Shown here piece by piece: positions 1-16,307 of a DNA stretch of 64,000 bases. The DNA is taken from NCBI GenBank assembly GCA_017889545.1, contig JAGFZV010000001.1, forward strand, positions 62,001-126,000. The letters are read 5' to 3'. This DNA comes from Bacillota bacterium. GTDB lineage: Bacteria; Bacillota; Negativicutes; CTSoil-072. The position numbers and the translations under genes are program-made. Within the stretch, counting starts at the first letter, position 1; every line of letters begins with the position of its first letter. The notes beneath the pieces are model-generated. The model did not search any database. It was not told where the DNA came from and worked only from the letters and a program-made list of their open reading frames with translations.

Positions 1-3000
1 TGGTCCAGCCGCCATAGGGGTAGGTGTCCAATTGAACGTCGGACAGTGCCAAAAGCCCCATCAGATCGCTCGCCTGCCGCAGCGGGGGCAGAATGATCAG
101 CCGGTCGGCAACCTTGGCCTGCCGGGCCGCGGTAAGCAAGCGGTCGGTCAGTTGATGATGAATGCTGGGCGGGTTCATATAGGGTTTCAAAACAATCCAG
201 GCCTGCGGCGCGCGCTGCAGGATTTGGACCAGCAAACGGTCCCGCTGCGGCGCATGCTTAATTCCGTTGGCGCAGGAAACGAAAACTACTGCCTCCTCCG
301 GCAGGTTGAAGTCGCGCCGATTTGGCATCTGCTGCGGCATCAACGGCGGATATTGCGCCGCACCAAGATTCGGCAAGCGGATCAGTTTTTCCCGGTAATG
401 GCTGTCGCCGTCCGGCGGCTCATGGTCGCCGCTGACATAGTAATCAATCGTCGGCAAGCCGGAGGTGATCCCGTGGCCGACCAAGACAGCCTGCACCGGT
501 GCGAGCCGGAAGGCGGCCAGCATATACGTGACCGGATCCATGCCCAGGTCGGCATATACGAGAATATCCAAGTCCTGCTCCCGGATCGTTTGCGCAATGC
601 TTTGGATATCCTGAAGATTTTTCATCTGAATAAACTGATCGCAATTCCGGCGGAATAATTCGGTCATATCGTCCTGCCGTTCACCCAGGGCAAAAACAGT
701 GACCGCAAATTTTTCCCGGTCGTGATGCAAAATGCGGTTGACCATATAGTAACTGACAGCCTGGCTGGCAAAGTTGCGGGAAACATAGCCCACCCGGAGT
801 TTTCCGTCCGCCCGGCCCGGCCGCCGTTTCGGCGTCTCTTTGACCCCGGGATACAAGCGGTGCATATTGAAAACCAGGAAGTCACCAAGCGCATTCAACG
901 CTTCCAGGTTGTTGCCGCCCACATAGGTGGAGCGCCAAAATGCAGTCATCGCTTCTTCAATGAATGCATTGAAAAAAGCCGGCGTCATCAGGCGTTTTTG
1001 CTTGACTGCCTCTCCGCACAGATCCAGGGCGTATTTCAGCAGCTTTTGCCGGTGTTCTTCGCGGGCGTTGAAATACGGCAGGTTGAGCATCCAGAAAATA
1101 ATGATCGCTTTGCAAAAAACGGGGATATATTTTGAACTCCACAATTTTCCGGCGTCAAGAGCAATCCGGTCAGCCGAAAACGGGGCATAGAGGGATGTGA
1201 GCAAGAGACGCGGATACCAGTTATTGTCATTTGAAGTCAATAGCTTGGCTGCCAGATCCTGTTCTTCGGCCGGAATGGTCAAACGCAGATTGAGAGCCGA
1301 AAAGACGTTCAAAAAAACTTGACGCCAGAGGCTGACCAGCAGCCACTGCTGTTTATCGTTGATTTGTTTTAGGGCGGTTACCGGCGTTTGGCTGAAATAG
1401 TCATGCAGTTTGCTGCGCAAGGTAAGACAGATGCGCAGCAGCGCCGCTTCCTGCACGGGATGAAGTCCCCCGCAGCGCGGCGGCAGTCGGCGGGCAGCGA
1501 ACCATTGCCCGGCAAATTCCCAAAGCAAAGAACTCTGCGTCATGGAATCGATAGACCGCAAGCAATAATCAAAATACAAATCCGTAAACAAGGCCCGATC
1601 GGCTGTTTTTTGTTTTTCAAACCCTTCGTACCGGGTCCGGAATTCCTGAATGACCTGTTTCCAGGAGACTGTTCGCGCCTTGTCGACTGTTGCAGGGATC
1701 TGAAACTTCGCTTCCAGTTCGGCAAAGTTTACCGGGTTCCTGGTTTCGCGCCGGGCAGACAAGTCCTGCGACAGCAGCGGCTGAGCTGCGGGAAGTTTTG
1801 GCTGTGGCCGGACCGGTTTTTTCCCCGATAACAATTCCTTGTAGAGTGCCAGGTACTCATCAGTCATGCGGCGCGCCGTGAATCGATCCATAACAGACTG
1901 CCGGGCGGCTTCACCGACAATTTGACTCCGCCCCGGATCGTTCAGGAACAGAGCCAAGCCAGCAGCCAAATCCTCGCTGTCGCGCATCCGGGCCAGATAG
2001 CCCGTCAGCCGGTGGGTGATGATTTCTTTCATGCCGCCGCTGTCAAACGCAACGACGGGAGTGGCGCAAGCCATCGCTTCCAACGGTGTCATCCCGGGTG
2101 TATTGAAGATTGTCGGCACGGCGGCAACGTCCGCTGCTCCGTAGTACGCAGCCAACTGCCGCGCATCGGTCAAAAAGGGAACATCCAACTGCTTTACCGG
2201 CAGATCCCCCGGGAGGCTTTCCTGACTGCCGCCAACGGTGATCAGCAGCAGGCCGGGAATTTCTTTGCTTATCTTGTGCAAGGCTTCCCGCAGAAATTGC
2301 CCGCCGCGGCTGGAATTGGCAAAGCCGCCGGGCGCAGCAAAAAGAACGATTTTCGCCGTCGCCGGGAGGGAAAGATTTTTGCGCAGCAAAGCCTGTTCGC
2401 CCGGCTGAAAAACTTCCGTATCCACCCCGTGATAAATCAATCGGACGTCATGCCCTTCCAGAATGCTGTGGACAGCCTGTTCCTGCCGCTCACGCGACGG
2501 GCTGACGACCGTAAAGCTGCTCAGCCGGTACAGACTGTTTTTCAACCTCTGCAGAGTTTCTCTCCTGCTGTCGCCGCAGCGGGCGTTTTCCGGCCGGGAA
2601 CTGTGCCGGCCGGCGTCCAGCGGACAGCCGCGGCAGCCCATGTCCCGCCAAAGATCGCAGGAATCGGCATTATAACAGCCGCCGGTAAACGCCAGCGAAT
2701 CATACAGCGTCCAGACAGTCGGCTTGATCGCCGTCAAAAACGGAAATAGCAAAAAAGAAAAATAATTGCCTTTGATCGCATGCAGATGAAGAACATCCGC
2801 GGCCTGAAAAGCCGGGTGCTGCAAGACCTGCAGCAAGGATGCGGAATAGAGATTGCCCAGTCCTTGCCGGTTTTGCGCCTCCAGAAGTTCTTTTTGCCAT
2901 GGCGTCTGCAAAAAAGGCAATGAAATGACACGCTCATCGCCGCTGATTTTGTGATGGGCGAACAACCAGCCTTCCTGTCCCTGCGCGGCCAAAGCGTCCA

Positions 3001-3067
3001 GCAGGGTTCGCGCGGTACGCGACGATCCGTCTTGTGTATCATGAAAATTGATATGCGCTATTTTCAC
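1..3067 (-). CDS. GT4-GT41 fusion glycosyltransferase (partial, C-terminus beyond window)
   Basis: The reading frame is open from a GTG at 3067 to the left edge, at least 1022 codons. Residues 1 to about 410 are a GT-B family 4 glycosyltransferase that begins KIAHINFHDTQDGSSRTART and carries TPLEAMACATPVVAFDSGG in its donor site. Residues about 420-735 are mostly helical and not recognised. From about 745 the protein matches GT41 enzymes (SPINDLY/O-GlcNAc transferase and HMW1C types): GKLRVGYVSRNF, LAPVQAVLVGH, GLPTIDYYVSGDHEP, EKLIRLPNLG and DVQLDTYPYGG. GT41 enzymes put GlcNAc or hexose on Ser/Thr or Asn of proteins in the cytoplasm. Where SPINDLY has DLxGHT, this protein has DLGMDP, closer to HMW1C. 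A GAAGGAG sequence lies about 11 bases before the GTG, and the gene starts 19 bases after hlyD ends. It is probably the last gene of the RTX secretion operon. The role, glycosylating the RTX protein, is inferred. Confidence 0.85.
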   Translation of the reverse strand, partial: MKIAHINFHDTQDGSSRTARTLLDALAAQGQEGWLFAHHKISGDERVISLPFLQTPWQKELLEAQNRQGLGNLYSASLLQVLQHPAFQAADVLHLHAIKGNYFSFLLFPFLTAIKPTVWTLYDSLAFTGGCYNADSCDLWRDMGCRGCPLDAGRHSSRPENARCGDSRRETLQRLKNSLYRLSSFTVVSPSRERQEQAVHSILEGHDVRLIYHGVDTEVFQPGEQALLRKNLSLPATAKIVLFAAPGGFANSSRGGQFLREALHKISKEIPGLLLITVGGSQESLPGDLPVKQLDVPFLTDARQLAAYYGAADVAAVPTIFNTPGMTPLEAMACATPVVAFDSGGMKEIITHRLTGYLARMRDSEDLAAGLALFLNDPGRSQIVGEAARQSVMDRFTARRMTDEYLALYKELLSGKKPVRPQPKLPAAQPLLSQDLSARRETRNPVNFAELEAKFQIPATVDKARTVSWKQVIQEFRTRYEGFEKQKTADRALFTDLYFDYCLRSIDSMTQSSLLWEFAGQWFAARRLPPRCGGLHPVQEAALLRICLTLRSKLHDYFSQTPVTALKQINDKQQWLLVSLWRQVFLNVFSALNLRLTIPAEEQDLAAKLLTSNDNNWYPRLLLTSLYAPFSADRIALDAGKLWSSKYIPVFCKAIIIFWMLNLPYFNAREEHRQKLLKYALDLCGEAVKQKRLMTPAFFNAFIEEAMTAFWRSTYVGGNNLEALNALGDFLVFNMHRLYPGVKETPKRRPGRADGKLRVGYVSRNFASQAVSYYMVNRILHHDREKFAVTVFALGERQDDMTELFRRNCDQFIQMKNLQDIQSIAQTIREQDLDILVYADLGMDPVTYMLAAFRLAPVQAVLVGHGITSGLPTIDYYVSGDHEPPDGDSHYREKLIRLPNLGAAQYPPLMPQQMPNRRDFNLPEEAVVFVSCANGIKHAPQRDRLLVQILQRAPQAWIVLKPYMNPPSIHHQLTDRLLTAARQAKVADRLIILPPLRQASDLMGLLALSDVQLDTYPYGGWT

Positions 3068-3086: not shown

Positions 3087-4460
3087 CTACCGTTCTCTCA
3101 AGCCTTCGCTCTGATATTTCCGGAACGGGTCGAGGAAAAATTCAATGATCCGTTTTTCCCGCGTTTTGATTTCTGCGGAAACCGTCATGCCGGGGCCGAG
3201 GTATACTTTTTTATCGCCGACAATCAGGTAGTCGCGATCCAGTTGGAGGGTGACCCGGTAAACGCGGCCCTTCTCTTTATCCTCAATGGCGTCTGGACTG
3301 ATCTGTGTCACATGAGCGTCCAGATAGCCGTATTTTTGGAAATTAAAGGTTTCGACTTTTACTTCCGCCTGCTGGCCGCTATAAATAAAGCCAATATCCT
3401 GGTTGGCGGCCCAGGCCTCCACTTCCAGCGTCACATCCGCCGGCACGATCACCATCAGCGGCTGAGCTTCCGTTACCACCCCGCCGATCGTATGCACCGC
3501 CAATTGCGTCACACGGCCGTCGATCGGCGAAGTCAGACGGGCCAGACGGTTCTTCTCGTTGGCCATTTTCAACGTTTCCAGGGCCACTTGCAGCGCCTTG
3601 CGGTCTTCCACCATTTTGGCCGTGATGTCGCGGTTCCGTTCCGCGATCACGCTTTGCATCGCCTCCCGGCTCTGGGCCAGGGCGGCTTCGGCACGGATAA
3701 TCTCGCCCTCCTGGGCAGCCAGGTTCTGCTCCAGTTCAATGCGGCGGCCGCGGTACTCTAAAACGGTGAAGGTGGAAATGGCATTCTGCACCATGAGCTG
3801 CTCCAGGCGGTTTTCCCGGTCGCGGGCAATCTCGTATAAGGAGGCATATTTGTCACGGTTGACGCGGGCCACATTGACGGAGGCCTCGCCCTGGTTCACA
3901 CTGTGCCGCGCTACCGCCATCTTGCTGTTGAAATCGGCAGTGCGGCTCATATACAAGCTCATCTGGAAGGACAAGTCCTTGTCATCCAGATCGGGGCTCG
4001 GCTGGGGCGTAAACGGAGCATTGTTCATTTCCGCCAGCAGCCGGTCAATTTCCAGGTTGTAATAGGCCACTTCTTTTTTGATCCGGGCCAGTTCCGCGCC
4101 GGAAATGGTTTGATCCAATTCAATCAGCAAATCGCCACTTTTGACGGTCTGGCCGTCCTTGACGTTGATTTGCTTGACTACGCCTTTGCTCTCCGGCTGG
4201 ATCACCTTGACGTAACCGCTGGGAATAATTTTCCCCGGCGCAACCGCGACTTCGTCCACGTGGCCGAAGACGGACCATAAAAAGGCGACGCCGATAATCG
4301 CCACCAGCACCGCGATCAGCATGCGTACCGTCGGCGATACCGGATTTTCGGTAATTTCCAGGATGGCGGGCAGAAATTCGGTTTCTTCCGGCGCCAGCGT
4401 CTCGTTTCCCTTGCGTTTTGTGCCCAGCCATTTGGCCAGGTATCCTGTTTTCTTTTCCAT
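3087..4460 (-). CDS. hlyD: HlyD-family type I secretion membrane fusion protein
   Basis: This is the periplasmic adaptor of a type I secretion system, linking the inner-membrane ABC exporter to a TolC channel. It has a short cytoplasmic N-terminus, one membrane segment at about residues 45-67 (MLIAVLVAIIGVAFLWSVF), a biotinyl-lipoyl-like half motif (VIQPESKGVVKQINVKDGQ), a long coiled-coil hairpin at about 120-300, then the second lipoyl half and a beta-barrel ending in the HlyD C-terminal pattern (RVYRVTLQLDRDYL, PGMTVSAEIKTREKRIIEF). About 457 residues is typical. Three ATGs are in tandem at 4466-4460. The third is preferred because AAGAGGG then lies about six bases upstream. The preceding transporter's TGA overlaps these ATGs, so translation is probably coupled. 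Confidence 0.95.
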   Translation of the reverse strand: MEKKTGYLAKWLGTKRKGNETLAPEETEFLPAILEITENPVSPTVRMLIAVLVAIIGVAFLWSVFGHVDEVAVAPGKIIPSGYVKVIQPESKGVVKQINVKDGQTVKSGDLLIELDQTISGAELARIKKEVAYYNLEIDRLLAEMNNAPFTPQPSPDLDDKDLSFQMSLYMSRTADFNSKMAVARHSVNQGEASVNVARVNRDKYASLYEIARDRENRLEQLMVQNAISTFTVLEYRGRRIELEQNLAAQEGEIIRAEAALAQSREAMQSVIAERNRDITAKMVEDRKALQVALETLKMANEKNRLARLTSPIDGRVTQLAVHTIGGVVTEAQPLMVIVPADVTLEVEAWAANQDIGFIYSGQQAEVKVETFNFQKYGYLDAHVTQISPDAIEDKEKGRVYRVTLQLDRDYLIVGDKKVYLGPGMTVSAEIKTREKRIIEFFLDPFRKYQSEGLRER

Positions 4461-4462
4461 CA

Positions 4463-6601
4463 TCATCCCTCTTGTTGGCTATGCAGATTTTGATAAATGC
4501 CCCCAAGGGCCAGTAATTCGCGGTGTGTGCCCTGTTCGGCCAGTCTTCCCCGGTCGATGACCAAAATGGCATCGCATTGTTCAACGGTGGACAGGCGGTG
4601 AGCGATGAGTATCACCGTACGGTTGGCGCAAATTGTATCCAGGTTGTCCATAATGACCCGTTCCGATTCATAATCCAGCGCGCTGGTTGCTTCGTCAAAA
4701 ATCAAAATGCGCGGGTTGGTGATCAGCGCCCGGGCAATCGCAATCCGCTGACGCTGGCCGCCTGACAGCGCGCCGCCGCGTTCACCGACGTTCGTATCGT
4801 AGCCTTCCGGCAATTCACGGATAAATTCGTCGGCGCCGGCCATCCGGGCGGCCTGAACGATTTCCTCGGCGGTCGCTTCCGGCCGGGCCATCGCGATATT
4901 TTCCCGCACGCTGCCGTTGAATAAGAAGCTTTCCTGCAGCACAAAGCCGATCTGACGGCGCAGCCAGGCCGGTTCGACCTGGGCGACGTCAATGCCGTCA
5001 ATGAGTACTTGACCTGTGTCCGCCACATAGAGCCGCTGGATGAGCTTGATAATTGTGCTTTTGCCGGAACCGGACCGGCCCACGATCCCCACCCGGGTTC
5101 CGGGCTTGATGGTAAAACTGAGCTCGCGCAGCACTTCCGGGCCGTCCGCCCGGTAGCGAAAGCCCACGTTGTCAAAAACAATTTCTCCTTCGATCGTCGA
5201 TAAGGTTGTCCGGTTGGGATTAAACGCCGGTTCCGCCGGCACATTGAGAATATCACCCAACCGGTCGATCGATAATTGGGCCTGCTGGAACGATTGCCAG
5301 ATGTTGACGAGCCGCAGAACCGGCCGGGTTACCTGTCCGGCCAGCATATTGAAGGCGACCAGCTCCCCGACCGACATTTTTCCGTCCATAACGAAGTTCG
5401 CGCCCAGCCAGAGGATGCCGAGCGTGGTCAGCAGGCTGACCATCTGCCCGATGCTGCCAAAGATGTTGGCCATGTTTGTGGTGTCAAACGACATTTTGAC
5501 GTAACGCGCCAGACTCTGTTCCCATTTCTGCTGGAATTGTTTTTCCAGTGCCAGGGATTTCAGCGTTTGGATCCCGGTAATCGATTCAATCAAGAAAGAG
5601 TAGTTTTCCGCATAGGCGGCAAACCGGACGTTGAGCTGACGTTTGAAGACCGGCGTAAACAGGAAGGTCAGCAGGGCAAATACCGGCAGCGCGGCAACTA
5701 CAATGAGGGACAAGGTCATATTGTAATAAAACATGGCGGCAACATACACAATGGCAAAGACGGTGTCCAACACCAGCGTGAGGGCGGTACCGGTAATGAA
5801 ATTACGGATATTTTCCAATTCCCGTACCCTGGCCACGGTATCCCCGACCCGGCGTTCTTCGAAAAAGCGCAGCGCCAGAGCAGAGATGTGCCGGTAGAGA
5901 CGGGTTCCGAGAATAACGTCAATCTTATTTGCGGTATGCACGAACAAATAGCCGCGCAGATAGGTGATGAGCGTTTGAAAGAGATAGACAAACAGCATCC
6001 CGACGACCAGGATATCCAACGTCGTCGTCCCGCGATGAACAAGAACCCGGTCGATGATGATCTGAAAAAAAACCGGGGTCGCCAAGCCGAATAGTTGAAT
6101 GCCGAACGAGGCGGCGATGACTTCGGAAAACGCACGGCGAAACCGCCAGAAAACCGGCAAAAACCAGGTAAGATTGAATTTTTTCGACAGCTGTCCGGTT
6201 AAGTTTTCGGCCGTCATGCGGCGCGTGATCAGAACGACTTCCCCGCTCCAAGCCTGGAGAAACTGTTCCAGCGGCAAGGAGAACGGCCGGCTCCGGTACG
6301 GGTCGATGAGTGTGACGGCGTTCTGATGGGTACGGCCAACGACCACACAATTCCCGTTTGTCAAAATCGCAATGGCCGGGATCGGCAGCTTGGAAAACCG
6401 TTCCTTGTCCGGCGTAACCAGCCGGGCTTTTAACCCGATATCTTTCGCGGCCCGCAGGAGTGTTGTCATATCCATGCCGGCACTGCCAATCGCATAGGCG
6501 CGGCGCAGCTGCTGTTCATCGGCCGGAATGCCCAGGATCTTGGCCGCTGTTGCCAGGCAAATCAAGGCTGTATCTAATTTAGGCGCCGATTGCGTTTCCA
6601 A
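4463..6601 (-). CDS. Type I secretion ABC transporter with degenerate C39-like domain (second of pair)
   Basis: This 712-residue HlyB/LapB-type exporter energises RTX protein secretion across the inner membrane. Residues 1-125 are a C39-like domain. The catalytic Cys position reads DTALIC rather than the peptidase ECG, and the catalytic His position reads GNCVVVG, so it should bind substrate rather than cleave it. Six membrane segments lie at about 150-430. The ATPase domain has Walker A GRSGSGKST, signature LSGGQRQRIAIARAL, Walker B ILIFDEATSALD and H-loop AHRLST, all intact. The start is a TTG at 6601 with AAGGAG nine bases before it. It follows its paralogue by 29 bases and overlaps the start region of hlyD. 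Confidence 0.93.
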   Translation of the reverse strand: METQSAPKLDTALICLATAAKILGIPADEQQLRRAYAIGSAGMDMTTLLRAAKDIGLKARLVTPDKERFSKLPIPAIAILTNGNCVVVGRTHQNAVTLIDPYRSRPFSLPLEQFLQAWSGEVVLITRRMTAENLTGQLSKKFNLTWFLPVFWRFRRAFSEVIAASFGIQLFGLATPVFFQIIIDRVLVHRGTTTLDILVVGMLFVYLFQTLITYLRGYLFVHTANKIDVILGTRLYRHISALALRFFEERRVGDTVARVRELENIRNFITGTALTLVLDTVFAIVYVAAMFYYNMTLSLIVVAALPVFALLTFLFTPVFKRQLNVRFAAYAENYSFLIESITGIQTLKSLALEKQFQQKWEQSLARYVKMSFDTTNMANIFGSIGQMVSLLTTLGILWLGANFVMDGKMSVGELVAFNMLAGQVTRPVLRLVNIWQSFQQAQLSIDRLGDILNVPAEPAFNPNRTTLSTIEGEIVFDNVGFRYRADGPEVLRELSFTIKPGTRVGIVGRSGSGKSTIIKLIQRLYVADTGQVLIDGIDVAQVEPAWLRRQIGFVLQESFLFNGSVRENIAMARPEATAEEIVQAARMAGADEFIRELPEGYDTNVGERGGALSGGQRQRIAIARALITNPRILIFDEATSALDYESERVIMDNLDTICANRTVILIAHRLSTVEQCDAILVIDRGRLAEQGTHRELLALGGIYQNLHSQQEG

Positions 6602-6630: not shown

Positions 6631-8790
6631 TTAACGGCTTTGCTGATGATAAAGGCCCCAGTACATTCCCTGTTTGGCGATCAGTTCTTCGTGACTGCCC
6701 TGTTCGATCAATTGGCCGCGCTCCATGACAAACAGGATTTCACATGGACGGACAGTCGACAGGCGGTGGGCAATGATGATCACGGTGCGGCCGGCACAAA
6801 TCTGATCCAGGTTTTTCATGATGACGCGCTCGGATTCATAATCCAGCTGACTTGTCGCCTCATCAAAAATCAAAATACGCGGGTTGGTCATCAGGGCCCG
6901 GGCGATGGCAATGCGCTGCTTCTGCCCGCCGGACAGGGAGGCGCCCCGTTCACCGACATTCGTGTCATAGCCTTGTGCAAGTTCGGCGATAAATTCGTGC
7001 GCCCCGGCAATGCGGGCGGCTTTGATCACTTCATCCATGCGGGCGCTGGGCCGGGCAATGGAGATGTTTTCCCTGACGCTGCCGTTAAACAGGAAATTTT
7101 CCTGCATGACAACGCCGATCTGCTGGCGGATCCAGGTTGGATCGGCTTGCGCAAGATCGATCCCATCCAGGAAGACTTTGCCGCTTTCCGGGATATAAAG
7201 GCGTTGAATGAGTTTGCTGATCGTGCTTTTGCCGGATCCGGACCGGCCGACGATCCCGATGCGCATGCCGGCGCGAATGTTCAGACTCACGTCACGGATC
7301 ACCAGCGGCGCATTCGGACGATAGCGGAAGTGGACATGCTCCAGGCGGATATCCCCGCGCAGGGCGGCATGACGTGCCGTACCGGCCCGGACGGTCGGCT
7401 CAGGCGGTGAATTGAGGATCTCGCCGAGCATCGCGACCGAAAGGCGAGCCTGCTGGTAGGATTGCCACTGGTTGGTGAGATGGGTCACGGAGTTGATCGC
7501 CTGACCGGCCAGCATATTGAAGGCGATAAACTGGCCAACCGTCATTTCCCCGCCGATTACCAGCCGCGAGCCCAGCCAGAGAATGCTCAAACTGGACAGC
7601 AGACTGACGATGCTGCTGATACTGCCGAACAAATTCCCCATATTGGACGTTTGAAACGAGATGTTGACATATTTGCCGATCGTTTCTTCCCATTTTTTAT
7701 TGAACTGCGGCTCAAGCGCCAGCGATTTGACCGTCTGGATGCCGGTCAGCGATTCCACAAGAAAGCTGTAATTTTCCATGTAGGCGGCAAACCGCGCCTT
7801 AAACTGTTCCCGCATGATGGGCGTAAAATACATGGCCATGCCGATGAATAAAGGCAAGGCGGCAATCACGACCCAAGTCAGAGTGGCACTGTAAAAAAAC
7901 ATGACGGCAAAAAAGACCACGCCAAAAACGGTATCCAGCAGCACCGTCAGGCTGGTTCCGGTTAAAAAGCTCCGGATATTTTCCAATTCGCGCACCCGGG
8001 TCACGGTGTCGCCGACCCGCCGCGATTCAAAATAACGCATCGGCAGCGCGCAAAGCTGATGGTACAGCCTGGCGCCGAGGATGGCATCGGCTTTATTCGT
8101 GGTATGGGTAAAAATATACGTCCGCAGATAACTCATCAAGCTCTGGAAAAAATAGGCGCAGAAAATAACCGCAATCAGGATGTTTAATGTGGACATTCCT
8201 TTGTGCGGCAAAACTTTATCGATTACGACCTGCATAAACAGCGGCGTGATCAGGCCAAACACCTGCAGTAAAAACGCCAGCAGGATGACTTGATAGAACG
8301 TGTGGCGGTAACGCCAAAATACGGGAGCAAACCAGCCGATGTTGAACTCCTGCCCCAGCCGCTTAAAACTGAAAGGCCGGGCGATTTCGATGATTTCACC
8401 GCTCCAGGCTTCGGCAAAGCGTTCCTGGGTCGCCACCTCCGGTTTGCCGGCGACAGGATCAAATACCAGAAATTTTGCGCCATCACAGCGCAGAATGACA
8501 ACATAGCTGTCGTTTTGGCAAACGGCGATGGACGGCAGCGACAGGCGATTGATCTTGTCGATTTCCGGCCTGACGACGCGTGACTTTAGCTTCAGTTTGT
8601 GGGCGGCCTTACAGATGCCCTTCGTATCGATCGCCGTCTTATCAAGAACAAATTCCTGCCGCAAGGAATTTTCTTCGGCAGGAATACCCAGAATGCGGGA
8701 CACGATCAGCAAGCTGGCCAGCCCGGTATCCGGGGAGCCGGCAGCTTGCGCTGTTTGTTCGTTGACTTGCGGATTGGCTTCAGATGTCAT
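6631..8790 (-). CDS. Type I secretion ABC transporter with degenerate C39-like domain (first of pair)
   Basis: This 719-residue protein has the same build as the next gene: an N-terminal C39-like domain (about 1-135), a six-helix membrane domain (about 160-440) and a C-terminal ATPase. The protease cysteine is missing, with DTGLASLL in its place, so it is not a processing exporter. ATPase motifs are intact: GRSGSGKST, LSGGQKQRIAIARAL, ILIFDEATSQLD and AHRLST. It lies 123 bases after the RTX structural gene, with a hairpin between them, which could set the ratio of cargo to exporter. It starts at ATG 8790 after AAGGGG. The two transporters may be a heterodimer or alternatives with different cargo; the sequence cannot decide. 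Confidence 0.93.
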   Translation of the reverse strand: MTSEANPQVNEQTAQAAGSPDTGLASLLIVSRILGIPAEENSLRQEFVLDKTAIDTKGICKAAHKLKLKSRVVRPEIDKINRLSLPSIAVCQNDSYVVILRCDGAKFLVFDPVAGKPEVATQERFAEAWSGEIIEIARPFSFKRLGQEFNIGWFAPVFWRYRHTFYQVILLAFLLQVFGLITPLFMQVVIDKVLPHKGMSTLNILIAVIFCAYFFQSLMSYLRTYIFTHTTNKADAILGARLYHQLCALPMRYFESRRVGDTVTRVRELENIRSFLTGTSLTVLLDTVFGVVFFAVMFFYSATLTWVVIAALPLFIGMAMYFTPIMREQFKARFAAYMENYSFLVESLTGIQTVKSLALEPQFNKKWEETIGKYVNISFQTSNMGNLFGSISSIVSLLSSLSILWLGSRLVIGGEMTVGQFIAFNMLAGQAINSVTHLTNQWQSYQQARLSVAMLGEILNSPPEPTVRAGTARHAALRGDIRLEHVHFRYRPNAPLVIRDVSLNIRAGMRIGIVGRSGSGKSTISKLIQRLYIPESGKVFLDGIDLAQADPTWIRQQIGVVMQENFLFNGSVRENISIARPSARMDEVIKAARIAGAHEFIAELAQGYDTNVGERGASLSGGQKQRIAIARALMTNPRILIFDEATSQLDYESERVIMKNLDQICAGRTVIIIAHRLSTVRPCEILFVMERGQLIEQGSHEELIAKQGMYWGLYHQQSR

Positions 8791-8913: not shown

Positions 8914-11900
8914 TTAAAGGTGTCTGTATGAACCTTGTGCGCTGAGTAACGCAAGGATTTCCGATGCCGATTTCGTCGTCCCGTCGGCAAACACCAAGGT
9001 ATCCGCCTGATACTGCTGCGAACCGATCGTTCCTGTGCTGCTGAACCAATTTTCAAAGATAAGTGTTTGGCCTGTTGAACCTTCGCCGCTGTCTGTCCCA
9101 ATTCCCAGCACCAAATCGTAGGGGCTGTTGTCGCTGCCGTATTGTACCCAGCATTCATTGGCATGAAAGCCAATCAGCACCGTATCGCAGCCATTGGGAG
9201 TTCCGTCCTCCGTTGTGCTGACAATCCAGTCGCTGCCGTCACCTTCGCCCCAGACATAGACATCATCGCCGGCGCCGCCGGCCAGCAAATCGGCGCCGCT
9301 GCCGCCCTTCAGGGTATCATCGCCGGCACAGCCTTTGATTTTCACATCGTCGGTTTCATTGGTCCGGTCAATCGAATCGCTGCCAGAGCCACCCAAGAAC
9401 ACTTCAAAATCCGTCAAAACTTCGTTGGTGGCGATCAGTCCAGCGGTCAATTGCCGCGCATCAAATACATCGATACCGGCTCCGCCGTTAAACCAACCGG
9501 TTTGGTCTCCTGCATTAAATACCAACGTGTCATTGCCAAGGCTGCCGCTTAGGATGTTGCTGCCGCTGCCGCCATCAAGCAGATCGTTTCCAATGCCGCC
9601 GGTCAAAATATCATCACTATCGCCGCCGGTCAATGTTACGGATTCGGTTCGGTAGGACTGATCGATCACATTCGCCGCTGCGTTCCCGACAAATACTTCG
9701 AAATCAGCAAATTGAGAACCTATGGAAGTGTAAACTCCGCTTCCTGCTGTCAGCGTATCTATCCCGGCTCCGCCGGACAAAGCCCTAACACCGTCCCAAA
9801 CCATGCTGTCGTTGCCTGATCCGCCCACAATCACTTCAAAATCAGCAAGCTCTTGTGTGGTATCCACCGCCAGCGAACCGGCATAATTGCTGGCGTCGAT
9901 GGTATCCGTGCCCGCGCCGCCGGATAAATTTGCGAATTGGTCGGTGCCGTCATAGATCACAATGTCATTGCCGGCGCCGCCGGATAAAATGTCCTCTCTG
10001 CCAAGGCCGTCGATGGTATCGTTGCCGCCCAGACCGGCGATCGTATCGCTTCCGCGCGTGCCTGTCAAGACATCGGCGCCTTCTGTTCCCAGCGTATCCA
10101 TGCCGGTTGTCGACAGCCAAATGTAATCGCCGGCGCCGGGGCTGTCATTGGGCAGGTATTCATAAATCCGGCCGTCGCTGAAGACAACTTGGCCGATCCA
10201 GGCGCTGTACGCATCGTATGCGCCCGTGTCGCCAAGAATCGTGATGGTTTCATTGCTGCCGTTCATCGAGAAGGTATCCCCGGCGGCAGTGTGAATGTAG
10301 GTGATATCATTGGCGCTCAAATTTGTCAGAATCAGCGTGTCATTCGCGTTGTCGCTGTCAAAAGCGATCGTATCGTGGCCCGAGCCAAGGCCGAAAACAT
10401 AGCGGTCCGAGCCCGCTCCGCCGGCCAGCAGGTCATTTCCGGCCAGTCCATTCAGCGTATCGTTGCCGCCCAAGCCGGCCAACTGTTCGCCGTAAGCCGC
10501 TCCGCTGATGGAATCCGCTCCATCCGTCGCGTTGCCGATGAACACGAGGTGGTTGATTTGCGCCGTCGTCAGCGTTCCGTCACTGAATAGCATTTTCTGA
10601 ATCTGATACGCACTGCCCAAAAACCAATTGCTGATCCGCAGCACGTTTTGCGCGCCATCCTTCCATTGAACCAGCAAATCATTCTCAAACTGGCTGAAGG
10701 AATAAGCCGCGATCCTATTGTCTTCGCCGGCATAGAACTGAATGACGTCATTGGTACTGCCGTCGGAATTATCTATCGCAGTATAGGCTTTATTGCTGAT
10801 TGTATAGGTATCATTGCCCAAGCCGCCCCGCAAGGTTACATGAGAATCACGATATAAGTACGATTCGCTGTAGGTTGTGGAACGCAATTCATCGTTGCCG
10901 GCGCCGCCGTCCAGCAAATTGTGCCCGCCGCTATCAATCTCAGCGATCATCAGATCATTATCGTTCCCGCCAAACAGCTGCAATTCATTTGCGAAATTGG
11001 CTGCCGTGGTTAGCGTATCCCGGCCGCTTCCGCCATCAACCGTATCGTATTCACCATTCACGATGATACGATCATTGCCGGTGCCGCCGAGCAGCATGTC
11101 ACTGCCGGATCCTCCCGCCATGATCGTATCATTGCCTGCGCCGCCGTCGAGAAGATCATTGTTCTCATCCGAATCGTCAACTAGCAAATCGTTGCCGTCA
11201 CCGCCCAGCAATGTGTCATTGCCGGCATCCCCGTATAGTTCATCTGCCCCCGCAGCGCCAACAAGAGAGTCTGCGCCGCTGCCGCCAATTAGCAGATCAT
11301 TGCCGGTTCCGCCGGTCACCGTGTCGTTGCCGGCCAGTCCGTAGAAGATATTGGTCAATGTGCCGGAACCCGACAAATTGTTATTCGTTTCATTGCCTTG
11401 GACAAAATTTTCCAGATTGCAGGCTTGACCGTTCACCACAAATTGTTTGATCTTGTTGGCGCTTACATACCAGTCTGCGAACGTGATGGAACTCGTTTCG
11501 CTTCCGGCGCGCGGTGAAACAATCAAATCATTGCCCTGTCTGGCGAAGCCGAGATCATTCAGTTTTGATCCGTAATTTTCTTCGGAAACCGTGTCAAAAT
11601 GAAGAATTACTTTGTCGCCGGCGTTATCGCTCGCGCCGCGGATGGTATCGTGGCCAAACGTCAGCCCGCTGAAACGATAGGTATCCACCCCGGCGCCGCC
11701 AATCAGCACATCGTTGCCTGCCCCGCCGATCAAAAGATCAGCGGCTCCTGATCCGTTCAGGGTATCGTTGCCGCCCAGACCGTTGAGCAGATCCGCCAGC
11801 CCAGCGCCGTTCAGCACATCATTGTAATCGATCGTGTCACTTTCATCCTTGCCTTGGATGGGATTGCCAAGCACAAAGGTTTCATTGCCGGCAATCAGGC

Positions 11901-13695
11901 CGGTCAGCTTGTAACCGGACCCATCTTTCCAGCCTTGCACCGTAATCGAAGCTCCGGATAAGGAATCGCCGCCCAGGTACAGCATGAGATCATTGCCGCT
12001 GTAAGCGATCCCGACCTCCTCAATGCCGATGCCGTCAGCCAGCTTGATCTTGTCAAGATTATTGCCGGAGGCTTTCATGATAAGATCTCCGCCGGAATCC
12101 GCACCGAAAATATAGGTATCGACGCCGGCGCCGCCTCTTAACAGGTCGTTGCCGGTTCCGCCGTCAATCCGGTCATTGCCGCTGCCGCCATCCAGCAGAT
12201 CGTCGCCGGCGCCGCCAAGCAATATATCGCTGCTGCCATTGCCGCTGATGGTATCCGCTTGATCACTTCCCATCATCATTTCCGCACTGTCATTGCCGGT
12301 AATCGTATTGCCTGCGGCATTCGCTGCATCCAAATAGCGCTGGATGGTATAGTACTGACCGCCCATTCGGAATTTTGTCACTTTTGCAGTGGAACCTGCA
12401 TCATTCCAGCCTTCCAGCGTCACGGTATCCGTCCCCGCCTCGTCTTCCACACGGATCAACAGGTCACTGCCGGCGATGCTCATTTCAATGGAGTTTTCGC
12501 TGATACTGCTGCCAAATTCAATGGTATCACTGCCATTGTTCGCATACGCTTTGACAGTATCATGGCCGAAGCCGGCATCAAACCAGTAGACATCCGCGTC
12601 ATTGCCGCCGATGAAGATATCGTTGCCCGTACCGCCATTCAGCGTGTCCGCACCGCTCCCGCCATATAAGCGGTCGCTGCCGCTGCCGCCGTTCAATTTA
12701 TCCGCCCCGGTCAGACCCAGAAGAAGATCATCGCCGCTGCTGCCGCCCAACGTATCTGCCGACGCGGATCCTGCGGACAGCGAATAGAGCGCATCGTCCA
12801 TGCTCACGTTGCCGATCGCATAGTCAGCGCCTTCATTCCAGCTTTTCAACGTAACCTTTCCTTGCGAACTGCCAAAATCAAGGATCAAATCATTGCCGGT
12901 CCGCAACGAATTGGACAAATCGGCAATACCGCTCAGAGCAATGAGATCATGACGGTTGGAGGAATCCTTCAGGATGACATCATTGCCGGCGGAGCTTGCC
13001 CCAAACACATAGCAGTCCGGTCCTTCACCGCCCATCAGGGTATCCGCGCCGCCCTGGCCTTCGATCGTATCGCTGCCTGCTCCGCCGCTGAGCAGGTCAT
13101 TGCCGTCACCGCCAATGATCGCATCGTTGCCCGCGCCACCGTAAATTCCATCGTTGGCCAGACCGCCGTCCAGGAAATCATCGCCAATTCCACCCACCAG
13201 GATATCGGCGCCGGCAGCGCCGTTCAAGGTCGTTCTGGCATCGCCCGACCCGGCGATAAAGTCCGCTCCGCTGGTTCCGGCAGCTGCCTTGGCATATACC
13301 ATCGAGCCAATTTTGACATTTTTGACGCCATTTTCAAAAGTCAGCCACTCTTCCAAGGTAAGAGTATCGATTGTATCATTGCCGGTCATCCGAATGATGA
13401 GGTTCGGACCCGCCGTCTCATAGGAAAATTTGCTGAGCGCAATCGAGCCAAAATCGACGGTATCCGCGTCACTCGCATCCCCTGCGCCAATCGTGTCATT
13501 CCCGCCGCCGGCCGAAAATTTGTATGTATCATTGCCTGCACCGCCAAACAGCCGGTCATTCCCCGTTCCGCCGTTTAGGACATCGGCGCCGTCATTGCCG
13601 TACAAGGTATCCTCGCCGCCCAAACCATTCACCGTATCGGCCAGGCTGCTTCCCTGCAAGATGTTGTTTGCAGCATTTCCGCTAATCGTGGCCAT
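8914..13695 (-). CDS. RTX repeat (haemolysin-type calcium-binding) secreted protein
   Basis: This is a 1593-residue, very acidic, glycine- and aspartate-rich protein built almost wholly of calcium-binding RTX nonapeptides (GGxGNDxLx). It has no signal peptide, as expected for type I secretion. RTX blocks alternate with about eight beta-rich modules with the pattern NDLIxx, then an aromatic xxWF or xxW, then FxDG (haemolysin-type C-terminal-like domain). The C-terminus ends in such a module (TLIFENWFSS, TLVFADGTT), the usual place for the secretion signal. No enzymatic or toxin domain is visible, so an S-layer-like or adhesive surface protein is more likely than a toxin. The frame extends to 13800, but ATG 13695 has TAAGGAGG six bases upstream and the protein then begins MATISGNAANN. 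The exporter genes follow directly. Confidence 0.93.
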   Translation of the reverse strand: MATISGNAANNILQGSSLADTVNGLGGEDTLYGNDGADVLNGGTGNDRLFGGAGNDTYKFSAGGGNDTIGAGDASDADTVDFGSIALSKFSYETAGPNLIIRMTGNDTIDTLTLEEWLTFENGVKNVKIGSMVYAKAAAGTSGADFIAGSGDARTTLNGAAGADILVGGIGDDFLDGGLANDGIYGGAGNDAIIGGDGNDLLSGGAGSDTIEGQGGADTLMGGEGPDCYVFGASSAGNDVILKDSSNRHDLIALSGIADLSNSLRTGNDLILDFGSSQGKVTLKSWNEGADYAIGNVSMDDALYSLSAGSASADTLGGSSGDDLLLGLTGADKLNGGSGSDRLYGGSGADTLNGGTGNDIFIGGNDADVYWFDAGFGHDTVKAYANNGSDTIEFGSSISENSIEMSIAGSDLLIRVEDEAGTDTVTLEGWNDAGSTAKVTKFRMGGQYYTIQRYLDAANAAGNTITGNDSAEMMMGSDQADTISGNGSSDILLGGAGDDLLDGGSGNDRIDGGTGNDLLRGGAGVDTYIFGADSGGDLIMKASGNNLDKIKLADGIGIEEVGIAYSGNDLMLYLGGDSLSGASITVQGWKDGSGYKLTGLIAGNETFVLGNPIQGKDESDTIDYNDVLNGAGLADLLNGLGGNDTLNGSGAADLLIGGAGNDVLIGGAGVDTYRFSGLTFGHDTIRGASDNAGDKVILHFDTVSEENYGSKLNDLGFARQGNDLIVSPRAGSETSSITFADWYVSANKIKQFVVNGQACNLENFVQGNETNNNLSGSGTLTNIFYGLAGNDTVTGGTGNDLLIGGSGADSLVGAAGADELYGDAGNDTLLGGDGNDLLVDDSDENNDLLDGGAGNDTIMAGGSGSDMLLGGTGNDRIIVNGEYDTVDGGSGRDTLTTAANFANELQLFGGNDNDLMIAEIDSGGHNLLDGGAGNDELRSTTYSESYLYRDSHVTLRGGLGNDTYTISNKAYTAIDNSDGSTNDVIQFYAGEDNRIAAYSFSQFENDLLVQWKDGAQNVLRISNWFLGSAYQIQKMLFSDGTLTTAQINHLVFIGNATDGADSISGAAYGEQLAGLGGNDTLNGLAGNDLLAGGAGSDRYVFGLGSGHDTIAFDSDNANDTLILTNLSANDITYIHTAAGDTFSMNGSNETITILGDTGAYDAYSAWIGQVVFSDGRIYEYLPNDSPGAGDYIWLSTTGMDTLGTEGADVLTGTRGSDTIAGLGGNDTIDGLGREDILSGGAGNDIVIYDGTDQFANLSGGAGTDTIDASNYAGSLAVDTTQELADFEVIVGGSGNDSMVWDGVRALSGGAGIDTLTAGSGVYTSIGSQFADFEVFVGNAAANVIDQSYRTESVTLTGGDSDDILTGGIGNDLLDGGSGSNILSGSLGNDTLVFNAGDQTGWFNGGAGIDVFDARQLTAGLIATNEVLTDFEVFLGGSGSDSIDRTNETDDVKIKGCAGDDTLKGGSGADLLAGGAGDDVYVWGEGDGSDWIVSTTEDGTPNGCDTVLIGFHANECWVQYGSDNSPYDLVLGIGTDSGEGSTGQTLIFENWFSSTGTIGSQQYQADTLVFADGTTKSASEILALLSAQGSYRHL
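9250..13630 (-). repeat. Tandem RTX nonapeptide-coding repeats
   Basis: This stretch encodes dozens of GGxGxDxxx nonapeptides in about nine blocks separated by beta-rich modules. On the plus strand it shows as recurring ATCATTGCCGGCGCCGCC-like strings. A second, longer repeat occurs three times near the C-terminal third: LADFEVIVGGSGND, FADFEVFVGNAAAN and LTDFEVFLGGSGSD, each after a GGAG(T/I)D motif. Confidence 0.9.
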
Positions 13696-13758
13696 CCATA
13701 ACCTCCTTACTGCCCTGCCAAATAAAGCCGGATGCATGAAAAATTTTGAACCCTTTCT

Positions 13759-13806
13759 GAAAAAATGCAGGTTAAAACAAGGTTTGCTCCTTGCATTCAA
13801 CCTGCA
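13759..13806 (-). terminator. Intrinsic terminator after ugd
   Basis: A long hairpin has outer arms TGCAGGTT/AACCTGCA and inner arms CAAGG/CCTTG. On the minus strand it is followed by TTTTTTC. It ends the ugd transcript and insulates the RTX operon, whose promoter must lie in the roughly 60 bases between here and 13695. I saw no convincing -35/-10 pair there. Confidence 0.7.
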
Positions 13807-13825: not shown

Positions 13826-15166
13826 TTATTTTAAAGCCTGCGCATTTCTCCCAATGCAATAATATTCAAAGCCTTGCTCTGCCATTTGCTGCAGGTCATA
13901 TTGGTTGCGGCCGTCAAAAACAACCGGTTGTTTCATGATTGTCTGCATCTCGGAAAAATCCGGCTGCCGGAACTGCGGCCATTCGGTGACCAGAACCATC
14001 GCATCGGCGTTCACTAATGCCCCCATCATCGTATCTGCATAACGGATCTGCTCTGCATATTCGGCCAGTGTTTTTTTTGCTTGACGTATTGCTTCCGGAT
14101 CATAGGCCTGAATTTCGGCCCCCATCCGGATCAATTCTTTGATGATGATGAGCGCGGGTGATTCACGGATGTCATCTGTCTGCGGCTTAAAAGCAAGCCC
14201 CCAGATCGCAAAGGTCATTCCTCGCAAATCTTGACCGAAACGACGTCTGATCAACTCCACCAGATACTTTTTCTGGCGTTCATTCGCGCGGTCAACGGCT
14301 TCGATTACGGCCATGGCAACCCCATGCTTCTTGCCGGTATGGACTAATTCTTTCACATCTTTGGGGAAACAGGAGCCGCCATACCCAGGCCCAGCGTATA
14401 AAAAGGGCATGCCAATCCGCCGGTCTGTGCCGATCCCCAGCCTCACATTGGCAATGTTCGCGCCAACCTGGTCGCACAGTTGGGCCATTTCATTCATAAA
14501 ACTGATTCGGGTGGCCAGCATCGCATTCGCAGCATATTTCGTCAACTCCGCCGATGCAATATCCATGACCAAGATAGGATTTTGGTTTTGCACGAAGGGT
14601 TCATATAGTTTTTTCATCAATTCAGCGGTCTGCGGATGATCAGCGCCGATAACCACTCGATCCGGCCGCATGAAATCTTCGATCGCAGCGCCTTCTTTGA
14701 GAAATTCAGGATTAGACACAACGTCAAATTCAATTTCTTGCCCGCGCAATTCCAGTTGTTCGGCGATCACCGCCCGCACTTGGGCCGACGTCCCTACCGG
14801 GACGGTCGATTTGGTGATCACAATCATTTTTTTGGTCATTTGCTTGCCGATTGCTTTCGCCGCCTGCAAAACTTGACTGAGATCGACCGAACCATCAGGC
14901 AGGGGCGGCGTTCCGACCGCAATAAAACAAAAGCGGGCATTGTTCAGCCCCTCCTCCAGCTGCGTACTGAAATGCAATCGGTTTTCCTGTCTGTTCCGCC
15001 TGACCATTTCCTCCAGCCCCGGTTCATAAATCGGAATGAACCCCTTTTGAAGCTTCTCCACTTTATCCTGATCCGCGTCAATACACCAGACCCGGTTTCC
15101 CATTTCCGCAAAGCAGGTTCCGGTGACTAAGCCGACATAGCCGGTTCCAATGATACAAATATTCAT
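13826..15166 (-). CDS. ugd: UDP-glucose 6-dehydrogenase
   Basis: It oxidises UDP-glucose twice with NAD to give UDP-glucuronate for surface polysaccharide. The 446 residues match the usual size. An N-terminal Rossmann motif (GTGYVGLVTG) is followed by the second-domain catalytic motif GPGYGGSCFPKD, whose Cys forms the thioester, and by the C-terminal UDP-binding domain (AIWGLAFKPQTDDIRESPAL). The start at 15166 has GAGGAG upstream. It lies 14 bases after the GT4 gene and is probably co-transcribed with it. Confidence 0.95.
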   Translation of the reverse strand: MNICIIGTGYVGLVTGTCFAEMGNRVWCIDADQDKVEKLQKGFIPIYEPGLEEMVRRNRQENRLHFSTQLEEGLNNARFCFIAVGTPPLPDGSVDLSQVLQAAKAIGKQMTKKMIVITKSTVPVGTSAQVRAVIAEQLELRGQEIEFDVVSNPEFLKEGAAIEDFMRPDRVVIGADHPQTAELMKKLYEPFVQNQNPILVMDIASAELTKYAANAMLATRISFMNEMAQLCDQVGANIANVRLGIGTDRRIGMPFLYAGPGYGGSCFPKDVKELVHTGKKHGVAMAVIEAVDRANERQKKYLVELIRRRFGQDLRGMTFAIWGLAFKPQTDDIRESPALIIIKELIRMGAEIQAYDPEAIRQAKKTLAEYAEQIRYADTMMGALVNADAMVLVTEWPQFRQPDFSEMQTIMKQPVVFDGRNQYDLQQMAEQGFEYYCIGRNAQALK

Positions 15167-15179
15167 TCTTGATCTCCTC

Positions 15180-16307
15180 TTATGTGTAGTTCTGTTCCAT
15201 TCTCAAAATGTAATCGTGCAGTTTTTTGCGAAACCGTTCCGGCGAGAAGCGCATGGCATTATCCCGGCACATTTGCGGCGAAATCCGGATCTCTTCCGCC
15301 TCAAACAGTTCGACGCCTTTTTTCAAGGATGAAACGGTTTGTTCTTCAAAGAAAACCCCCGTGGGAAATAAGTTGGTCAAACCCTGTACTGTTTCCTGCA
15401 CACCGCCTTTGCCGTAAGCGATCACCGGCGTCCCGCAGGCCTGCGCCTCAAGCGGGGTGATGCCAAAATCTTCTTCGGCGGCAAACACAAATGCACGGGC
15501 TTTTTGCATATAATCAATCAATGCTGCCGACGGCTGATAGCCCAAAAAGGTAATGTTGGGCGCATCATTCGCTGCCGCCCGGACGGCTGCGGCTTCCGGT
15601 CCATCACCAATCACTACTAACCTGCGTTCGGGCATCTCGCGAAAGGCAGTGACAATCAGGTCAATTTTTTTATAGGGAACCATCTGCGAAACCGTTAAAT
15701 AATAATCTTCTTTTTCCTTTCCCATTAGGAAAGCATCCACGGCAACCGGTGGATAGATTACGTCGGCATCACGATGGTAGGCTTTGCGTATGCGGCGGGC
15801 AATAAACTTGGAGTTGGCAATGAAACCGTCGACTCCGTTTACGGTCCGCAAATCCCAAAGACGAAGATAATGCATGAAGGCTTTGGCCGTCCAGCTTTTG
15901 ATGCCCCGTGTCATTTTGACTTCCTTCAAGTACTGATGCTGCTGATCCCAGGCGTAGCGGACAGGAGTATGTACATAAGAAAGATGCAGCTGATCGGGTT
16001 CGGTCAGGACTCCTTTGGCGGCAGTATGTGAAGAGGAAATAATCAGATCATAGGCAGAAAGGTCAAATTGTTCGACTGCCATGGGCATCAGCGGCAAATA
16101 TCGCCGGTACCACTTACGGAGCTTAGGAAGTTTTTGGATAAACGAAGTCTGAACCGGCTTTCCCTTCAGAAAAGCGCGCTCTCGTTCCGGCAATACGTCC
16201 AACAGGCAATACAAATCCGCCTCCGGATAGAGCAGGAGCATCTGCTCCAAAACCCGTTCCGCGCCACCGTAAGCAACCAGCCAATCATGTACAATCGCAA
16301 CTTTCAA
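15180..16307 (-). CDS. GT4 glycosyltransferase (WbaZ/mannosyltransferase-like)
   Basis: This 375-residue GT-B retaining glycosyltransferase begins KVAIVHDWLVAYGGAERVLE, typical of WbaZ/RfaB-type family 4 enzymes. Residues about 85-120 (SSSHTAAKGV, SYVHTPVRYAWD) match the WbaZ mannosyltransferase subgroup. The donor site carries EEDFGITPLEAQACGTPVIA, including the EX7E pattern. It should add a sugar, possibly mannose, to a core or O-antigen-like glycan at the cytoplasmic face. It starts with TTG at 16307 after an AGGGG-rich stretch. The 139 bases upstream (16308-16446) hold no feature I can name. Confidence 0.85.
   Translation of the reverse strand: MKVAIVHDWLVAYGGAERVLEQMLLLYPEADLYCLLDVLPERERAFLKGKPVQTSFIQKLPKLRKWYRRYLPLMPMAVEQFDLSAYDLIISSSHTAAKGVLTEPDQLHLSYVHTPVRYAWDQQHQYLKEVKMTRGIKSWTAKAFMHYLRLWDLRTVNGVDGFIANSKFIARRIRKAYHRDADVIYPPVAVDAFLMGKEKEDYYLTVSQMVPYKKIDLIVTAFREMPERRLVVIGDGPEAAAVRAAANDAPNITFLGYQPSAALIDYMQKARAFVFAAEEDFGITPLEAQACGTPVIAYGKGGVQETVQGLTNLFPTGVFFEEQTVSSLKKGVELFEAEEIRISPQMCRDNAMRFSPERFRKKLHDYILRMEQNYT

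Follow-up and report, generated by a model that had tools for sequence, protein, structure and literature searches.

The window analysed here is the whole stretch of 64,000 nucleotides spanning positions 62,001 to 126,000 of contig JAGFZV010000001.1 (assembly GCA_017889545.1), from a Bacillota bacterium of the class Negativicutes, lineage CTSoil-072. It opens, on the minus strand, with a gene in which a family 4 glycosyltransferase (GT4), a helical domain and a GT41 catalytic domain are fused, adjacent to genes for a type I secretion system (T1SS). The frame is uninterrupted, as the first-pass annotation had reported, starts with GTG at position 3067 and runs off the left edge; the window covers residues 1-1022, and leftward extension adds the final 101 residues, completing a gene of 1123 amino acids (C1:61696-65067). 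Both Pfam models proposed for checking the fusion score above cut-off, PF00534 at 73 bits and PF13844 at 120 bits (two stretches, cut-off 25), as does PF13692 at 76 bits; the GT4 N-terminal model PF13439 is marginally below its own cut-off (27.6 vs. 28.5). In an AlphaFold model of the 1022-residue part (13-row alignment, mean pLDDT 72.5, pTM 0.54) residues 1-417 adopt a GT-B fold, residues 122-208 being mostly below pLDDT 50. GT4 enzymes match this fold with Z up to 28.9, the value for sucrose-phosphate synthase (rmsd 3.4 A, 354 residues), and PglA, BshA, PimA and MshA with Z near 28. Profile match and fold assign the N-terminal domain to GT4. A helical block, mostly above pLDDT 80, precedes the GT41 part.

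The minus-strand gene order is UDP-sugar dehydrogenase, RTX1628, HlyB, HlyB, HlyD, fusion, a glycosyltransferase (GT) of the PF12000 type, an adhesin of the two-partner secretion (TPS) MBG/YDG type, RTX1233, a GT9-GT1 protein of 760 amino acids, and RTX1119, with gaps of 25, 123, 29, -4, 19, -4, 229, 21, 156 and 206 bp (Table 1). HlyB and HlyD homologues are co-directional with the RTX cargo, as in T1SS operons, and the cluster would export calcium-binding surface proteins. The fusion does follow hlyD, by 19 bp, but does not end the operon as first annotated: it is internal to the cluster, since the PF12000 gene overlaps its end by 4 bp and same-strand genes continue through the adhesin, after the 229-bp gap, to RTX1119. 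A promoter-like site precedes the adhesin (23 such sites were found in the scan, 12 expected), and a terminator-like hairpin follows RTX1233, hairpins occurring near the chance rate (22 found, 20.2 expected).

Table 1. Coordinates of the fusion, its neighbours and associated proteins (window positions unless a contig or locus is named)
Feature	Position	Strand	Remarks
GT4-helical-GT41 fusion gene	2..3067	-	aa 1-1022 of 1123; remainder from C1:61696
GT4 domain	1823..3067	-	aa 1-415; EX7E first Glu replaced by Asn
Helical domain (HEL)	842..1714	-	aa ~452-742; conserved with GT41
GT41 catalytic domain	2..814	-	aa 752-1022 in window; extends to ~1118 beyond
HlyD-type T1SS adaptor	3087..4466	-	
HlyB-type ABC transporter with C39-like domain, second copy	4463..6601	-	
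HlyB-type T1SS ABC transporter with C39-like domain	6631..8790	-	TIGR01846 over cut-off
RTX repeat protein, 1628 aa, presumed T1SS cargo	8914..13800	-	
UDP-glucose/GDP-mannose dehydrogenase family (sugar-nucleotide supply)	13826..15166	-	
GT4 family glycosyltransferase	15180..16307	-	
TPS MBG/YDG adhesin, 1677 aa	C1:55222-60255 (= L003:11222-16255)	-	two genes downstream of the fusion
FGLNEIKNE coil proteins	L044:3-4907, L045:15060-18665, L046:8297-13061, L048:8034-12966, L063:7109-11018, L102:2-3308		
DGEQKxYILPD proteins	L054:13309-13737, L052:5326-5751, L043:12260-12913 and others		

The distribution of the helical-GT41 unit was monitored with a profile in 380 Negativicutes genomes. The unit, whole or cut by contig ends, is found in 21 genomes; 12 of them carry 13 GT4 fusion genes, with open frames of 1060-1133 amino acids, that of G120 being cut at a contig end. 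Joining of two separate genes by sequencing error, envisaged at first annotation, is excluded, because the fusion is intact in other genomes, including the single-contig assemblies G005, G023 and G048; it is a real, conserved gene. Among the relatives are Pelosinus fermentans JBW45 and P. propionicus; a contig scan for two short peptide patterns gave 12 loci, whose labels are Pelosinus, Negativicutes or Bacillota. Outside the class, a phylum sample gave the own genome only (1 of 398).

Nine genomes carry the unit without GT4, G048 having both kinds. In this branch the unit usually bears a C-terminal domain of about 250 residues without Pfam match (in G307 it is a separate gene, in G309 the gene is cut). 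A stand-alone relative of this domain is encoded near Pelosinus fusions, and its model (pLDDT 82.8) matches GT-A enzymes, GalNAc-T2, WrtF and SpsA among the matches listed with Z 12.6-14.5; judged by this model, the sister branch fuses the helical-GT41 unit to a GT-A-type transferase. No relative of the domain was found in the own genome, in a search run without positive control. A small DGEQKxYILPD protein, without Pfam family in the members scanned, lies directly downstream of Pelosinus-type fusions at all of 11 loci, among them that of the cut G120; in G048, where two fusions stand in tandem, it comes after the second. A coiled-coil protein with FGLNEIKNE repeats is encoded directly upstream, on the same strand, at six of the nine GT4-less loci (G013, G036, G039, G048, G306, G309), is nearby in G305, is not visible at the contig edge in G307, and was not found within the fetched 19 kb of G304. 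Several of these coil proteins are rich in NXS/T sequons and would form candidate enzyme-acceptor pairs with the GT4-less unit. All seven coil-protein rows, several contig-cut, exceed their sequon shuffle means, four with no more than 24 of 2000 shuffles as high; the proteins are repetitive, and the motif read in reverse is frequent in them as well. A further family, f11, comprises long frames with two GT41 matches each (e.g. G190:C56, 2147 aa; G224:C8, 1141 aa; G200:C1, 1150 aa).

About 300 helical residues separate the GT4 and GT41 domains, as first described, but they are no linker. Because helical domain and GT41 co-occur without GT4, the helical part is, from these comparisons, a piece of the GT41 enzyme. 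Identity between the window protein and nine others is 28-41% in the helical domain and 56-63% in GT41, a faster divergence of the former that is as expected if this domain binds acceptors. The solved structures closest to the catalytic domain are SPINDLY (9.5e-39) and TtOGT (7.4e-37); these and OGT carry tetratricopeptide repeats (TPRs), whereas no TPR model matches the fusion at E 0.001 in the Pfam scan. K937 aligns in HMMER with the lysine of the LYK of OGT, does not vary among the 14 relatives aligned, and provides the UDP-diphosphate-site lysine that marks GT41 members, K842 in OGT numbering. The corresponding residue of N-glycosyltransferases (NGTs) is K440-441 (PMC10507012, PMC5303269). 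Like the fusion, HMW1C and ApNGT, cytoplasmic enzymes whose acceptors are surface adhesins, have a GT41 catalytic domain behind an all-helical N-terminal domain, in their case the AAD. The fusion differs from them in the extra GT4 and in scoring 59.5 with the NCBIfam NGT model NF049992 (equivalog cut-off 1000). With profile A3 of the GT41 unit, ApNGT is matched from within the helical domain (E 8e-17). Profiles restricted to that domain, built from 11 and 20 sequences, gave no significant match among PDB sequences, AAD included, and the 20-row profile, when extended into the GT part, reached ApNGT there only (E 0.2). The 50 structure matches listed are all GT4 and OGT/SPINDLY, a list in which the absence of NGTs excludes nothing, the helical domain not having been modelled alone. 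The residues by which AaNGT reads its NX(S/T) sequon, Arg177 and Asp215, could not be mapped onto the fusion. The score below the NGT cut-off, a catalytic domain nearest to SPINDLY/TtOGT and a helical fold without assignment leave both Asn and Ser/Thr as candidate sites of linkage.

The GT4 half varies in its motifs. Eight of the 12 fusions aligned retain an unbroken EX7E, taken here as the GT4 donor motif, as does the G055 fusion outside this set. The window protein has NTPGMTPLE, with Asn for the first Glu, and DGSSR in place of GGAAR. The motif is also altered in one G048 copy (Gln) and in G002, and is degenerate in G045, where the fused domain is eroded and the PF00534/PF13692 match lost. 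Contig C61 of G045 encodes a stand-alone relative of the GT4 domain with an intact motif (ESFGLTVCE); at this place (L049:5647-14113) the gene adjoins three PF12000 GTs and two GT9-GT1-related proteins. Identities in GT4 and GT41 are 46 and 59% for window-G005, 46 and 67% for G048b-G005 and 27 and 59% for G045-G005, against 65 and 69% (G005-G117) and 63 and 64% (G005-G048a) for intact pairs; the altered G002 has no lowered GT4 identity (64 and 71%). The lower GT4 values hint at relaxed constraint in some fusions. Loss of the first Glu is no proof of inactivity, because maintained PF12000 proteins have Phe at that position (11 of 11 inspected). Both T1SS-linked fusions, those of the window and of G045, carry an altered GT4 half, and in the window protein the domain is probably impaired or re-purposed.

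This bears on the proposal, made at first annotation, that one polypeptide could both attach the first sugar and extend it. With GT41 attaching and GT4 extending, the fusion would then be a one-polypeptide counterpart of ApNGT plus Agt, a GT4 that extends NGT-linked glucose (PMC5303269, PMC12159676). The same sources describe the closest precedent, in Actinobacillus pleuropneumoniae, where a GT41 and a GT4 extender serve one acceptor. The genes of that pair are separate, in a rimO-ngt-agt operon that has neither an adhesin nor a transporter gene; in the window cluster GT41 and GT4 are fused, T1SS-linked, and the GT4 is doubtful. Retention of the fusion in 12 genomes, mostly with EX7E, and the second branch fusing GT41 to a GT-A-like domain speak for a bifunctional enzyme, the lost motifs of the window protein and the eroded G045 domain, with its intact copy elsewhere, against it. 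As an account of the window protein it is unlikely; attach-and-extend is still plausible for the Pelosinus type, where EX7E is retained by most fusions.

The link to secretion is broader for the neighbouring PF12000 gene than for the fusion. HlyD matches were found in 125 of the 380 genomes, at 134 places, 40 of which were inspected (20 mostly best matches, 20 from further down the list). PF12000-type GTs are encoded at 15 of these 40, and 11 of the 15 also encode a GT1-type protein of about 560 amino acids related to the C-terminal half of the cluster's GT9-GT1 protein. Over the whole set, 98 PF12000 genes reside in 87 genomes, 84 of which also have a HlyD match (p 1.6e-48, computed ignoring phylogeny). 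HlyD is on the same contig for 75 of these genes, and in every such case the two lie no more than 10 kb apart with the same orientation, the PF12000 gene being downstream in 73 (L129, L139-L143 and L146-L149 are among the loci seen); the 75 genes cover at least 11 genera and 5 families. The gene overlapping the window fusion belongs to this T1SS-linked type. As a control, HlyD is on the same contig for 15 of the 150 GT41 rows listed, and within 10 kb for none but the two fusions. A cluster in G048 (L118:1956-16609) encodes HlyB-HlyD-HlyB together with four tandem PF12000 GTs and two TPR proteins; one of these matches GT9 below threshold, and the other is a TPR-GT41 protein, about 11 kb from HlyD and absent from the 150 control rows. 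With the window fusion counted, GT41 enzymes of two architectures have thus entered T1SS-GT clusters.

PF12000-type GTs are also found on alphaproteobacterial plasmids. Fourteen places were opened of 225 matching records, one of them unannotated, with a gene table that is incomplete. The stretches fetched contain T1SS genes in Shinella, where the GT directly follows HlyD, Microvirga and Phaeobacter, and a peptidase-domain ABC transporter in A. lipoferum. No T1SS genes are listed in this incomplete table for the other nine annotated places, among which those of Methylobacterium and Roseovarius have T1SS-target or calcium-binding proteins. No description of the GT4-GT41 fusion or of T1SS-linked PF12000 enzymes was found in the open-licence literature searched.

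The idea that RTX proteins are glycosylated is strengthened by the linkage of all contig-sharing PF12000 genes to HlyD. RTX substrates leave the cytoplasm unfolded via T1SS. The reading we favour, tentatively and at somewhat less than an even chance, is that the cluster is a cytoplasmic glycosylation module linked to the T1SS, and that a GT41 enzyme was recruited into it; that the fusion is a soluble cytoplasmic glycosyltransferase of this module is held with the same reserve. The helical domain would recognise the unfolded secretory protein and the GT41 domain put on the first sugar; lengthening of the glycan would fall to the cluster's separate transferases (PF12000 GT, GT9-GT1, other GT4s), after which HlyB/HlyD would export the RTX proteins. 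In favour of this reading count the PF13844 match and the invariant lysine, the tight packing of hlyD, fusion and PF12000 gene, and the recurrence of T1SS-fusion adjacency in G045, where the fusion lies 24 bp after hlyB. The fused GT4 may have been an extension enzyme in the ancestor, most Pelosinus-type fusions having kept its motif. Secreted proteins are indeed modified in the cytoplasm by NGT-type GT41 enzymes and by the OGT-like FlmG (PMC10507012, PMC7591256). FlmG, which modifies Caulobacter flagellins, is likewise a modular soluble enzyme, joining TPRs to an OGT-like part, whose N-terminal domain binds the acceptor (PMC7591256); no flagellin gene lies near the fusion. Flagellin was rejected as target, the two flagellin-domain matches of the genome being both on contig C40.

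Several observations weigh against the favoured reading. In the stretches fetched, the fusion lies beside a T1SS in 2 of the 12 fusion genomes only, the window genome G000 and G045; its position after hlyD, from which the RTX cargo had been taken as target, is a weak argument, and the case for that target now leans on the PF12000 linkage and L118. No T1SS was found within the fetched 13.6-20 kb in the other ten genomes; since their fusions lie beside the small conserved protein instead, the fusion family is not T1SS-specific. Tree support uniting the two T1SS-linked fusions is not firm (72/69; 89/85 before removal of the outgroup row L089). One genus supplies most of the 75 linked PF12000 genes, and the remaining 23 of the 98 are on other contigs or in genomes without HlyD match, the linkage test covering the 75. 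Sequons exceed expectation in the three RTX proteins (28 vs. 18.1, 22 vs. 11.6, 17 vs. 11.5), an excess that is at least partly a product of the RTX repeat itself (GNDT). Acceptor and activity, like the order of steps, are predicted from the genes, and LPS (lipopolysaccharide) and polysaccharide genes surround the cluster.

These surroundings would suit an enzyme that glycosylates no protein and takes part, with the products of nearby GT, heptose, rhamnose and fucose genes, in making a polysaccharide or an LPS side chain. A GT9 heptosyltransferase, a sugar-kinase plus cytidylyltransferase, LptD_N and several GT genes are encoded upstream, and downstream genes are taken by us to be dTDP-rhamnose and GDP-fucose enzymes. 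GT41 enzymes in the literature consulted act on proteins, and the T1SS-PF12000 linkage is with protein exporters; we regard this alternative as quite improbable, the least favoured of those considered. Amid these LPS/glycan genes, positions 23391-26090 of the window encode an 899-residue protein resembling nonribosomal peptide synthetases, with AMP-binding, carrier and thioesterase domains.

The TPS adhesin, which lies outside the window, rivals the RTX cargo as target. HMW1C glycosylates HMW1 in the cytoplasm before Sec export, and fusion and adhesin could form a similar pair, the adhesin being the main acceptor: ten MBG_2 stretches accompany its TPS domain (123 bits), the solved relatives of the GT41 unit include HMW1C/ApNGT, and NXS/T is in excess in the MBG region (30 vs. 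18.6 expected; 5 of 2000 shuffles as high). The excess is smaller over the whole protein (38 vs. 30.8; 142 of 2000 shuffles), and the sequons sit in a recurring repeat motif (NYT, NGT); since both this motif and the GNDT repeats of RTX proteins generate sequons themselves, sequon counts were rejected as proof of target. A second TPS protein of the genome, on contig C31 (L105:6857-12036, G000), has no sequon excess (22 vs. 23.5), and the sole strong TpsB match adjoins this copy, not the adhesin beside the fusion; a weak second one (24.2 bits, cut-off 22.7; window 54277-54609) is far from the adhesin. Gap and promoter-like site separate the adhesin from the genes upstream, and the G045 locus, as far as it was fetched, yielded no TPS gene. 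The adhesin is an unlikely main acceptor.

Extended to the class, the favoured reading of T1SS-coupled glycosylation becomes a little more tentative still. In Negativicutes, soluble GTs encoded with HlyB/HlyD (PF12000, the GT1-type protein of about 560 residues and, in some lineages, GT41) may modify unfolded RTX adhesins before export, GT41 units acting as exchangeable initiators fused to GT4 or GT-A extenders. Two-partner adhesins, autotransporters and flagellins are known to be glycosylated in the cytoplasm ahead of export, and the proposed system would be for type I secretion what the accessory-Sec/Gtf systems are for Gram-positive adhesins. T1SS exporters conservedly linked to dedicated GTs would extend pre-export glycosylation to RTX proteins, and would offer directly testable enzyme-acceptor pairs, some of them in cultured Pelosinus, and modular GT41 enzymes that may be useful for glycoengineering.

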